Assembly: GCF_000009905.1 (NCBI RefSeq) | Contig: NC_006177.1 | Coordinates: forward strand, 434,001 to 498,000 | DNA from: Symbiobacterium thermophilum IAM 14863 | GTDB taxonomy: Bacteria > Bacillota > Sulfobacillia > Symbiobacteriales > Symbiobacteriaceae | Direction of reading: 5' to 3' | DNA length: 64,000 nt | Part shown: positions 31,517 to 60,089 of the stretch, in pieces | How positions within the stretch are numbered: position 1 is the first letter of the stretch | How the letters are laid out: each line of letters starts with the position of its first letter | Made by a program: the position numbers and the translations under genes | The notes under the pieces: model-generated | What the model was told of the DNA's origin: nothing | The model's input: only the letters and a program-made list of their open reading frames with translations | Database searches by the model: none

Positions 31517-31633
31517 TCGCCTCCGCGCGCCCCTTGCCGAGGGGCTGTGGTGGCAACCGCACGGGGCGGGTTCGGAAAACGCCGTTGGGCGTACCTGGCC
31601 GCCGGCGAGTCTACATCCTCGGAGGTGTTCCGT
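31517..31633 (+). promoter_or_regulatory. Candidate L21 leader
   Basis: About 115 nt of GC-rich leader precede rplU, with possible pairings such as GCCCCTTGCCGAGGGGC and GTGGCAACCGCAC. Firmicutes commonly carry a structured autoregulatory L21 leader here. Position and size fit; I cannot confirm the consensus by eye. Confidence 0.45.
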
Positions 31634-56362: not shown

Positions 56363-58129
56363 CTACCTCGCGATCCCCGCTTTTTCGTCCGGGGCGATGG
56401 CGGTCCAGAGCTCCCGCATGGCCGGGGAGGTGCGCAGGAGCTCCGGCAGCGGACCGGCAGCCACCAGCCGCCCCTCATCCAGGAGGAGGATCTGATCGGC
56501 CCGCTCCAGCGCCGCCCGCCGGTTGGAGACGCAGAGCACCGTCGCGCCCTCCCGGGCGAAGAGCCTGCGCCAGAGCTCCGCCTCGGTCTCGCTGTCCAGG
56601 GCGGAGGAGATGTCGTCGAGCACCAGCAGCGCGGGCTGCCGGGCGAACATCCGGGCGGCGGCGGTCCGCTGCACCTGCCCCCCCGAAAGCTTCACCCCCC
56701 GGGATCCCACCTCGGTCTCCAGGCCGCAGGGGAACTGTGCCACGTCGGGCTCCAGCACCGCGGCGGCGACGGCCTCCTCCATATCCACGTCCGACTCCGC
56801 CAGCCCCAGCAGGATGTTGGCCCGCAGCGAGCCGGAGAAGATCCGGGGCACCTGCGGCGTGTAGGCGATGCGGGGCGGGGTGAAGAACGCCATCGGGTCC
56901 GTGACGACCTGCCCGTTCCAGCGCACCTCGCCGGCCTCTGCGGGCAGGAGGCCCAGCAGGGTGCGCACCAGCGTCGTCTTGCCGGAGCCGATCCTGCCGG
57001 TGATCACGGTGAAGCTGCCGCGGGGGAGCGTGAAGGAGACGTCGGCGATGCCCCGGCCCGTCTCGGGGTGGCGGTAAGTCAGGCCCGCCACGGTGAGCAC
57101 TTCCAGGGCGTCTTCCGGCCGGCGTGCCGGCGCCGGTTCGGGCGGGATCTCCTCCCGGAAATCCAGCCTCGCTCCGGCTACCAGCTCCTGGTCGCCTCCG
57201 GCCAGCTCCGCCATGCGGGCCTGGTAGACTCCCACCGCCCGGAGCTGGGCGACGGATTCGGAGACGCCCCACATCCGCCAGCCCACCTGCTGCAGGAGCA
57301 TCTGAAAGAGGGCGAACTGGGCGGGGCTGAACTGCCCGCGGGCCAGCAGGGGCGCCGCAGCCAGGATCACCAGGCCGAGGGCCACGTAGAAGCCGTTCTC
57401 CGACAGGGCGAAGAGCAGTCCCCACTGGAGCCGCTCCTTCAGGCTCACGACCTCCCGGTCCTGGTTCAGATCCCGGAAGCGGCGCAGGGCGTCCGGGACG
57501 GCGCCGGCCACCTGAAGCACCGGCACGGCGCTGAGGATCTCCCCCAGGTAGCCTGTCACCGCCTCGGTCCGCTCCATCACCTGGTCGCGGTAGAGCACGA
57601 TGTTCTCCTGGAGCTTCCGCATGGCCAGGAAGACGCCGGCGATGGCGGCCGCGCCCAGGGCGGCCAGGAGCGGCTGAACCGTGAACAGGTAAGCGAAGAT
57701 GCCGGCCGCGGTGGCCACGTCCACCAGGGAGAGGGGGAAGCGGTGGATGTAGAAGCAGGACTCCAGCACGTCGTCCCGGAAGCGGGTGATCGCCTCGCCC
57801 GGGGTCACCGGCAGGGGCAGGGCCCCGGGGCGCCGGTAGATGCCCCGCAGCATGTTGATCCGCAGGAGCGTGGTGAGGATCCGGTCCATGAGGGTGAGGC
57901 CGGCCTGCCAGATGAAGTCGCTGAGCTGTGCGGCCACGCTGGCCAGCAGGAAGGCGATCGCGTACTGCACGGGCTCTTGCGTGCCGCCGGGCAGCGCCGC
58001 GAAGAACCGGGAGGTCATCACGGCCGCGAGCGCAGCGAGCGCAGAGCCCAGCCCGAAACCGAAGGTCGCCAGCAGGACGGCGGGCAGGGTCATGCGGAAC
58101 AGCCGTGCCGTGAAACGGAGACCGCTCAT
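56363..58129 (-). CDS. ABC exporter half-transporter with degenerate ATP site (BmrC/TM287-like)
   Basis: 588 aa: six-helix membrane domain (~1-320) and ATPase domain (~340-588). The ABC signature is normal (LSGGQ), but the Walker B acidic pair reads LVLDD (Asp where the catalytic Glu belongs) and the switch histidine is Asn (VSNRRAALERAD). These changes mark the non-hydrolysing site of heterodimeric exporters. ATG at 58129 overlaps the upstream subunit's stop (TGATG). Likely multidrug exporter subunit in the membrane. Confidence 0.88.
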   Translation of the reverse strand: MSGLRFTARLFRMTLPAVLLATFGFGLGSALAALAAVMTSRFFAALPGGTQEPVQYAIAFLLASVAAQLSDFIWQAGLTLMDRILTTLLRINMLRGIYRRPGALPLPVTPGEAITRFRDDVLESCFYIHRFPLSLVDVATAAGIFAYLFTVQPLLAALGAAAIAGVFLAMRKLQENIVLYRDQVMERTEAVTGYLGEILSAVPVLQVAGAVPDALRRFRDLNQDREVVSLKERLQWGLLFALSENGFYVALGLVILAAAPLLARGQFSPAQFALFQMLLQQVGWRMWGVSESVAQLRAVGVYQARMAELAGGDQELVAGARLDFREEIPPEPAPARRPEDALEVLTVAGLTYRHPETGRGIADVSFTLPRGSFTVITGRIGSGKTTLVRTLLGLLPAEAGEVRWNGQVVTDPMAFFTPPRIAYTPQVPRIFSGSLRANILLGLAESDVDMEEAVAAAVLEPDVAQFPCGLETEVGSRGVKLSGGQVQRTAAARMFARQPALLVLDDISSALDSETEAELWRRLFAREGATVLCVSNRRAALERADQILLLDEGRLVAAGPLPELLRTSPAMRELWTAIAPDEKAGIAR

Positions 58130-59868
58130 CAGGCCAGCACCTCCTCGCTTCCTGCCGAGCGCAGCCGGTTGTAGTGGGAGCGGGTATCCCGGGCCAGGAT
58201 CCGGCGCGGCCCCCACTCCAGGATCGAGCCCTGGTCCAGCACGAGGATGTCGTCGGCCCGCTCCACGGTGGTCAGCCGGTGAGCGATGATGATCGCTGTA
58301 CGGCCGGCCAGCAGCCGGTCTACCGCGCGCTGCAACAGGGCTTCGGTCACGGGGTCGATGCGGGCGGTGAACTCATCCAGGATGACGAGCCCCGGATCCC
58401 GGAGCGAGAGGCGCACCAGGGCGAGCAACTGGGCCTCGCCCGCCGACAGCCCGCCGCCCGCCGGACCGATCCGGCTGTCGAGCCCGTCCTCGAAGCGCCC
58501 GAACCATCCGGTGAGGCCGAGCCGGTGGACAGCTGCCCAGATCTGCTCATCGGTGATCGCGGGGTTGAACAGCGCCAGGTTATCCCGCAGGGTGCCGCCG
58601 AACAGGCCCACCTCCTGCGAGATCAGGCCGATGCGGCTGCGCAGCTCGTCCAGCGGCAGCTGGCGGATGTCGGAGCCGCCGATGCGCACCGTGCCCTCCT
58701 GCGGGTCGTAGAAGCGGCAGAGCAGCCGGATCAGGCTGGACTTGCCGCTGCCGGTTCGCCCGAGGATGCCGAGCGTCCGTCCCGGCTCGAGGTGGAAGGA
58801 GACGTCATTCAGCACGAGGCGCCCCTCCTCGTACTGGAAGGACACCCGCTCCAGGGTGACGGAAAGGGGGCCGTCGCGCAGGGCGCCCCCGGCGCCGTCG
58901 GTGATGGCCGGCGACACCGCCTTCAGCTTCACCAGTCGTCCCAGCGCGGCCCGGGCCCGCTGCATCTCGTCCATCTGGTTCCGGATGGTGCTGATCGGCT
59001 CGCCGAGCAGGTCGGCGTAGAAGAAGAGCATCATGGCGGTGCCCAGGGAGAGGGAGCCGTTTCGGTACAGGGACCAGGCCAGGAGCAGCATGGCGAACTG
59101 GCCGAGCACCCAGGTGACGTACGTCACGCCTGCGGCGGTTGTCTCCAGGGCACGGGCCCGCCAGCGCAGCCGCCAGTGCCTGGCCGACAGGGCCATGAGC
59201 CTCCGCAGCACGTAGCGGTCGGCGCCCAGCGCCTTCACCTCCTCACGCCCGGCGATATGCTCCTCCACGAAGGACATCATCTCCGCGGAAGAGGCCCGGA
59301 TGCCGGCCCAGGCCTTCACGGAGAGCGAGGAGACCGCGAGCATGGCCGCAATGCCGAGGGCGAAGGAGCCCAGGCCCACCAGGCCGGGGAGCGGCCCCTC
59401 CGTGAAGAGCACGACGAGCACGCCGCCGATCAGCAGCAGCGAGGCGCCCACCTGGGCGACGAACTGGGAGAAGAAGCCGGCGAGGACGGTGACGTCTCCG
59501 TCGATCCGCTCGATCAGCTCGCCCGGGGTGTGCTCCTTGTGAAAGGCGAGGTCCAGGCCGAGGACGTGCCGGGCGAGGTCCAGCCGCAGCGCGTTGGTCG
59601 CCTTCCAGGCGATGCGCTCGGATAGCATGGTGGCCGTGATCCGAAGGACCTGGATGAGCAGCGCCGCGGCCAGGAAGAGGCCGGCGGGGAGGACCAGTTC
59701 CGGCAGCGGCGCCCCCTCCATGGTGCGGTCGACCAGGGAGCGGAGCAACTGGGGAAAGAGGAGCCGGAGGACGGTGGCTCCCGTCAGCAGCGTGACCAAG
59801 AGCAGCAGGAACCCGCTCAGGGGTCTCAGATAGGTCCAGAGAAAGCGGAACGCGCTGTGGAGAGACAC
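58129..59868 (-). CDS. ABC exporter half-transporter with intact ATP site (BmrD/TM288-like)
   Basis: 579 aa with six helices (~1-300) and an ATPase domain: Walker A ILGRTGSGKSSLIRLL, Walker B LVILDEFTARID with the catalytic Glu, and switch His in IIIAHRLTTVERAD. Its signature is variant (LSAGE). In heterodimers the variant signature faces the other subunit's degenerate Walker site, which fits the pair here. The GTG start follows the attenuator's T-tract; AAAGGGG inside the hairpin is the only likely ribosome site. Confidence 0.9.
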   Translation of the reverse strand: MSLHSAFRFLWTYLRPLSGFLLLLVTLLTGATVLRLLFPQLLRSLVDRTMEGAPLPELVLPAGLFLAAALLIQVLRITATMLSERIAWKATNALRLDLARHVLGLDLAFHKEHTPGELIERIDGDVTVLAGFFSQFVAQVGASLLLIGGVLVVLFTEGPLPGLVGLGSFALGIAAMLAVSSLSVKAWAGIRASSAEMMSFVEEHIAGREEVKALGADRYVLRRLMALSARHWRLRWRARALETTAAGVTYVTWVLGQFAMLLLAWSLYRNGSLSLGTAMMLFFYADLLGEPISTIRNQMDEMQRARAALGRLVKLKAVSPAITDGAGGALRDGPLSVTLERVSFQYEEGRLVLNDVSFHLEPGRTLGILGRTGSGKSSLIRLLCRFYDPQEGTVRIGGSDIRQLPLDELRSRIGLISQEVGLFGGTLRDNLALFNPAITDEQIWAAVHRLGLTGWFGRFEDGLDSRIGPAGGGLSAGEAQLLALVRLSLRDPGLVILDEFTARIDPVTEALLQRAVDRLLAGRTAIIIAHRLTTVERADDILVLDQGSILEWGPRRILARDTRSHYNRLRSAGSEEVLA

Positions 59869-59942
59869 AAAAAAACAGGCCCCTTTCGTCGCTGTGATGG
59901 GTGGGAGGACGTCCTACCTGCTCACAGACGAACCAGGCCTGT
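59869..59942 (-). terminator. Attenuator hairpin before the ABC exporter operon
   Basis: On the minus strand ACAGGCC (59942-59936) pairs with GGCCTGT (59881-59875); inside, TTCGTC with GACGAA and TGTGA with TCACA extend the helix. Seven T follow (59875-59869) directly before the GTG start. AAAGGGG, the probable ribosome site, sits in the 3' arm. The loop carries a 10-nt palindrome AGGACGTCCT. Confidence 0.82.
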
Positions 59943-59970
59943 GCGATCGGTGCAAGCGCGCACAGCTAGT

Positions 59971-60018
59971 TCATCGTGAGCGTCTGGCGAAGAACCGGGG
60001 AAGGTTGAACAGCAGCAC
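59971..60018 (-). CDS. 15-residue leader peptide of the ABC exporter operon
   Basis: GTG start at 60018 with AGGAGG 9 nt upstream, encoding MLLFNLPRFFARRSR and ending at a TGA (59973-59971). The stop lies about 30 nt before the attenuator hairpin. Its position suits a sensor peptide whose stalled ribosome alters hairpin formation, as described for the BmrB leader in Bacillus. Two Phe-Phe/Arg-rich segments would be natural pause points. Not similar enough to BmrB to claim homology. Confidence 0.6.
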   Translation of the reverse strand: MLLFNLPRFFARRSR

Positions 60019-60059
60019 GGGGCAGCACCTCCTGTTCAAGAGTTGTTGGGCAGTTCCCA

Positions 60060-60089
60060 ATGCTAGGCGGCGGCGGCCGGACCTGTCAA
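60060..60089 (-). promoter_or_regulatory. Promoter of leader peptide and ABC exporter operon
   Basis: Minus strand TTGACA (60084-60089) and TAGCAT (60060-60065), 18 bp apart. Transcription would start near 60053, about 35 nt before the leader-peptide start. Divergent from the BON-domain gene. Confidence 0.72.

Follow-up and report, generated by a model that had tools for sequence, protein, structure and literature searches.

A leader on the minus strand of the window, the 64-kb stretch of DNA analysed here, is likely to be a ribosome-position attenuator that controls both halves of an ABC exporter, and this was the best explanation of the locus as a whole. The whole switch lies on the minus strand, where the leader spans 60089 (promoter) to 59869 and is followed at once by the exporter start at 59868 (the source genome is a single contig of 3,566,135 bases). 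Its anatomy, its conservation, the exclusive pairing of its two main helices and a switch point common to four species were established by computation, and attenuation by a translated leader, in which the position of the ribosome would decide the outcome, is well supported by comparison of the four leaders.

In three relatives, the exporter is likewise preceded by an orthologous leader (protein identities of 83% for L013, 79% for L004 and 76% for L021). L013 and L004 belong to two genomes of the same genus, L004 being the same record as L018 (G061), and L021 belongs to another genus of the family. The promoter, a GTG-led ORF, a stop codon within an antiterminator arm, a terminator and an exporter ribosome site inside that terminator were kept in all four species. 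The sequence upstream of the leader varies between the relatives while the leader itself stays, and the leader therefore travels with the exporter. A covariance model of the leader (R1) gave a significant match once per genome in four of the five family genomes, the fifth being 77% complete, and no other match in samples of 154 genomes of the class and 398 genomes of the phylum.

The leader is presumably transcribed from a sigma-70-type promoter at 60060-60089, in which TTGACA (60089-60084) is separated by 18 nt from TAGCAT (60065-60060), with an RNA start expected near 60053. This promoter scored 10 of 12, and two promoter-like sites were observed in a 5.6-kb stretch, versus 0.1 in shuffles. 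TTGAC and a -10-like hexamer, spaced by 17 to 18 nt, were present in all four orthologous leaders. Downstream, the leader ribosome site AGGAGG (60028-60033) lies 9 nt upstream of the GTG start of a short ORF (59971-60018) of 15 codons plus TGA, which encodes the putative peptide VLLFNLPRFFARRSR and is presumably translated. When the window leader was shuffled, an in-frame, Shine-Dalgarno-led ORF of 14 to 15 codons ending at this TGA arose by chance in 0.06% of cases, and a similar ORF of 14 to 15 codons led by a ribosome site in that frame had a frequency of about 0.1% in the shuffles of each leader. The four orthologous ORFs start with GTG, have 15, 15, 15 and 14 codons and a ribosome site 8 to 9 nt upstream, and are all closed by TCAC-NN-TGA, with the stop codon inside the antiterminator arm. 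A short translatable leader ORF with a ribosome site is accordingly present in four of four orthologs, the site being weaker in L004 (GGGGG, with two mismatches to AGGAGG), which fails a strict ORF test. An alternative 20-codon ORF in another frame (59966-60028; peptide MLPRAAVQPSPVLRQTLTMN) begins at a GTG at 60028 inside AGGAGGTG; it is probably not used, because its start overlaps the ribosome site AGGAGG.

The regulated genes encode a complete pair of half-transporters. The first half (58129-59868, minus strand; 579 aa) has the catalytic Walker B motif LDE, the switch His and an altered signature, LSAGE, while the second (56363-58129, minus strand; 588 aa) has an altered Walker B motif (LDD), Asn in place of the switch His and the canonical signature LSGGQ. 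The ATG of half 2 starts on the last base of the half 1 stop codon. By these sequence motifs, one ATP site of the pair is complete and the other altered in the window and in L004; the L013 and L021 loci end too early to include the full partner. Such a combination is the pattern of heterodimeric exporters such as TM287/288 and BmrCD. In a comparison with solved bacterial structures, half 1 matched 7ocy (which we take to be EfrCD), TM_0288 and YheH (BmrD), and half 2 matched YheI (BmrC). No NCBIfam equivalog cut-off was reached by the exporter. By analogy with these transporters, we infer that its cargo is drugs.

Between the leader ORF and the exporter lies an intrinsic terminator hairpin (59875-59942, minus strand; -34.5 kcal/mol), which is the consensus fold of the four leaders. 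It is followed by a U7 tract (59869-59875) that touches the exporter start codon, a GTG at 59868, and the 64-kb window contains no other run of seven or more T on either strand. A U6 to U7 tract likewise stands directly before the exporter start codon in the orthologs, with one C between tract and ATG in L004. The built-in terminator scan reported nothing at the leader hairpin, which it missed because of its loop limit of 8 nt. The 3' arm of the terminator contains the probable exporter ribosome site, GAAAGGGG (59880-59887), which is invariant in the four species and complementary to the 16S-type 3' end CTGGATCACCTCCTTTCT, found six times in this genome. The exporter N-terminus aligns from this start codon in four of four orthologs; therefore, the exporter start is correct, and the sole likely ribosome site lies inside the hairpin. 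An earlier sequence-only reading of this DNA had already described a TTGACA-18-TAGCAT promoter, a 15-codon ORF led by AGGAGG, a long hairpin with a seven-T tract adjoining the exporter GTG, an exporter ribosome site within that hairpin and a heterodimeric ABC exporter, and each of these features was recovered at the positions given above. The invariant GAAAGGGG in the 3' arm would also fit control that is mainly translational, with a hairpin that masks the exporter ribosome site and a U tract that terminates poorly. However, a U6 to U7 tract directly follows the stem in all four leaders, and that of the window is unique in its length, so we consider mainly translational control unlikely and presume that the hairpin of the attenuator does terminate transcription.

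The strand that forms the 5' side of the terminator is also claimed by a second helix. When the leader was folded alone, the terminator did not form; instead, 59981-59959 paired with 59945-59920 in a 23-bp helix. The 5' arm of this antiterminator (59959-59981, minus strand) overlaps leader codons 13 to 15 and the stop codon. The shared strand (59920-59945), which serves as its 3' arm and, from 59942, also as the terminator 5' arm, is nearly invariant in the four species. With one strand in common, antiterminator and terminator are mutually exclusive as computed, and in the window they are isoenergetic (-34.6 versus -34.5 kcal/mol at 37°C and -20.5 versus -20.6 at 60°C). The antiterminator duplex of the window reached -36.0 kcal/mol, compared with -16.2 ± 2.9 in shuffled arms, none of 2,000 of which was as good; the other three duplexes (-30.8, -30.8 and -28.9 kcal/mol) were reached by 0, 1 and 5 of 1,000 shuffles, respectively. 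Across the four species, the antiterminator pairing was kept in 88% of cells, versus 20 to 39% when slid. Double changes, such as A-U to G-C, were found in 2 of its 23 pairs; with four rows only, column shuffles gave no separation of this covariation from chance (68 of 500). Covariation in RNAalifold on the four leaders favours the terminator, and the antiterminator was assessed separately.

To place the ribosome on these folds, its footprint was masked as 16 nt counted from the start of the P-site codon, and pair probabilities were computed for each codon. With the polymerase just past the shared strand, the antiterminator was complete when the P site was at any of codons 1 to 8 in the three 15-codon leaders and at codons 1 to 7 in the 14-codon leader. 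The switch point thus fell between codons 8 and 9 (7 and 8 in the 14-codon ortholog) in all four leaders and was unchanged at 60°C, so that in folding, the position of the ribosome decides the structure. With a ribosome at the stop codon, the antiterminator was gone and the terminator formed (16 to 18 pairs). For the full-length leader of the window, the two folds were close for stalls at codons 4 to 5 (37°C) or 4 to 7 (60°C), and the outcome of those early stalls therefore depends on the antiterminator forming first. Ribosome-free folds disagreed, with the antiterminator in the window and L021, the terminator in L013 and a mixture in L004; an effect of absent translation is therefore predicted for the window leader only. 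These results refine the sequence-only reading, in which ribosomes stalled on the leader peptide open the hairpin and so switch on export. Attenuation stands, as does switch-on by an early stall in the predicted fold. The hairpin is not opened directly, since the antiterminator arm upstream, which was absent from that reading, captures the 5' strand of the terminator, and stalling has the proposed effect in folding for about the first eight codons and not for later ones.

A long structured leader with a terminator and an antiterminator could also sense a ligand or a protein, as a riboswitch, a T-box or the target of an antiterminator protein, in which case the ORF would be incidental. However, no Rfam match was found in the leader, even at E 5, the two competing helices together with the ribosome site account for the conserved bases, and all four leaders retain the ORF with its stop at one place. 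We therefore regard such sensing as very unlikely.

The peptides encoded by the leader ORFs (VLLFNLPRFFARRSR, VLYFNLPRFFDKRSQ, VRFFINPIHPMYCSH and VLLAIFSVLPQRSQ) diverge in sequence while ORF length and stop position are kept. Their likeness is limited to the two nearest species and to the last residues, and the latter are alike because the antiterminator fixes them at the nucleotide level. The sequence-only reading would have been refuted by a lack of conservation in close relatives, and it withstood this test with one qualification: the place and length of the ORF, the antiterminator and the terminator are conserved, the peptide sequence is not. Drug- and peptide-specific stalling, in which the leader peptide and a particular antibiotic would act together in the exit tunnel in an erm-like manner and only certain drugs would induce, is consistent with the 11 of 15 residues shared by the window and L013 peptides, including FNLPRFF. 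Yet, apart from the segment constrained by antiterminator pairing, the peptides of L004 and L021 bear no relation to these two, and the switch geometry is kept nonetheless, which makes this alternative rather unlikely. The composition of the window peptide, which counts three Phe and four Arg among its 15 residues, is what might be expected of amino acid attenuation, in which a shortage of charged tRNA (e.g., for Phe or Arg) stalls the ribosome. However, enrichment of any one residue class is not shared by the four peptides (3, 3, 2 and 1 Phe; one Arg in L004), and the regulated gene is an exporter rather than a biosynthetic operon; this explanation is extremely unlikely. With an RNA switch that is fixed and peptides that vary naturally, the leaders allow a direct test of whether drug and peptide are read jointly or ribosome position is read alone.

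Other leaders were found near the exporter family and in the window. The closest paralog in the genome (L002, G000:C1:1573723-1575441; 47% identity) has no leader of this type, nor do its orthologs in the same relatives, L017 and L019. A second R1 match in the source genome (L030, E 0.114) was rejected as weak and without leader-like context. An exporter homolog from another member of the class (43% identity) has an unrelated leader of its own (L015:690-901), with a terminator, CCGCGGGTGGCACGCCCGCGG-T5, and a 23-codon ORF that is led by AGGAGG and starts with GTG. Such control may have evolved more than once in front of exporters of this family. Upstream of a further homolog (46% identity) lie an ORF of about 46 codons with repeated GI/F motifs, led by AGGAGG (L007:2060-2310), and, about 160 nt before the aligned gene start, a terminator with T7. 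Within the window, the sole Rfam match was a ribosomal protein L21 leader (RF00559) at 31545-31622.

We propose that the attenuator would work as follows. Polymerase would start near 60053, and a ribosome would load on the 15-codon ORF. If translation proceeded through to the stop, the ribosome, with its P site at codon 9 or later, would cover the antiterminator 5' arm (59981-59959), leaving the shared strand to pair with the terminator 3' arm (59900-59875), and transcription would end just before the exporter start. In transcripts that read through, the exporter ribosome site would be locked in the same terminator hairpin. A ribosome held within about the first eight codons would instead leave the antiterminator arm free as the polymerase emerged, and the arm is predicted to be likewise free in the window species when no ribosome loads. 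The 23-bp antiterminator would then capture the shared strand, so that no terminator would form, the ribosome site would be free and both exporter halves would be made. The signal sensed would be slow early translation, most likely caused by ribosome-targeting antibiotics, which by analogy with known systems are a plausible inducer. The leader would be largely indifferent to the sequence of its peptide. Because the peptide drifts under a constant ORF length and stop position, the leader may act as a peptide-blind ribosome speedometer, in which any delay within codons 1 to 8 would activate a multidrug exporter and one hairpin placed against the start codon is both terminator and ribosome-site lock, a proposal that we judge evenly balanced.

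In attenuators of the trp/phe type, a ribosome near the stop codon masks an antiterminator arm, and an early stall frees it. The leader described here would behave in the same manner; however, it has no run of codons for one amino acid, and ribosome inhibition is its presumed signal. A computational attenuator survey by Naville and Gautheret mentions the genus for transposon attenuators (PMC2965389), and this leader may already be among the candidates of that survey. The vmlR leader of Bacillus subtilis, which controls an ABC-F resistance factor, has a 3-codon uORF in an anti-antiterminator and separate hairpins for termination and masking, and the peptide variants MIN, MDN and MDK all work (PMC9226507). 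The present leader shares with vmlR a uORF, an antiterminator, a terminator and masking of the ribosome site (PMC9226507). In contrast to vmlR, it precedes an exporter gene, its ORF has 15 codons, and one hairpin is both terminator and ribosome-site mask.

In B. subtilis, BmrCD is induced by lincomycin, chloramphenicol and erythromycin by way of the translated bmrB leader (PMC4191407), which makes it the functional precedent. Like BmrBCD, the locus places a putatively translated leader, a terminator and an antiterminator before a heterodimeric multidrug-type ABC exporter (PMC4191407). The bmrB ORF has 53 codons and contains the terminator, and when its translation is blocked, expression falls and induction is lost (PMC4191407). 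In contrast, the 15-codon ORF described here stops within the antiterminator arm, and the terminator follows it and harbours the exporter ribosome site. The window leader is predicted to be on when translation is lost, and the exporter halves are encoded in the opposite order to BmrCD. In the R1 search of the sampled genomes, which matched significantly only the four leaders of this family, no homology between the leader and bmrB was detected; as bmrB is described (PMC4191407), the two are set apart by ORF length and terminator placement. The leader thus resembles BmrBCD and VmlR mechanistically, without detectable leader homology. The type of control is already known, as for Bacillus BmrCD, and is not a new kind. 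Overall, the leader would extend antibiotic-responsive exporter attenuation from Bacillus to a distant lineage of Bacillota, in an independent and very compact form.
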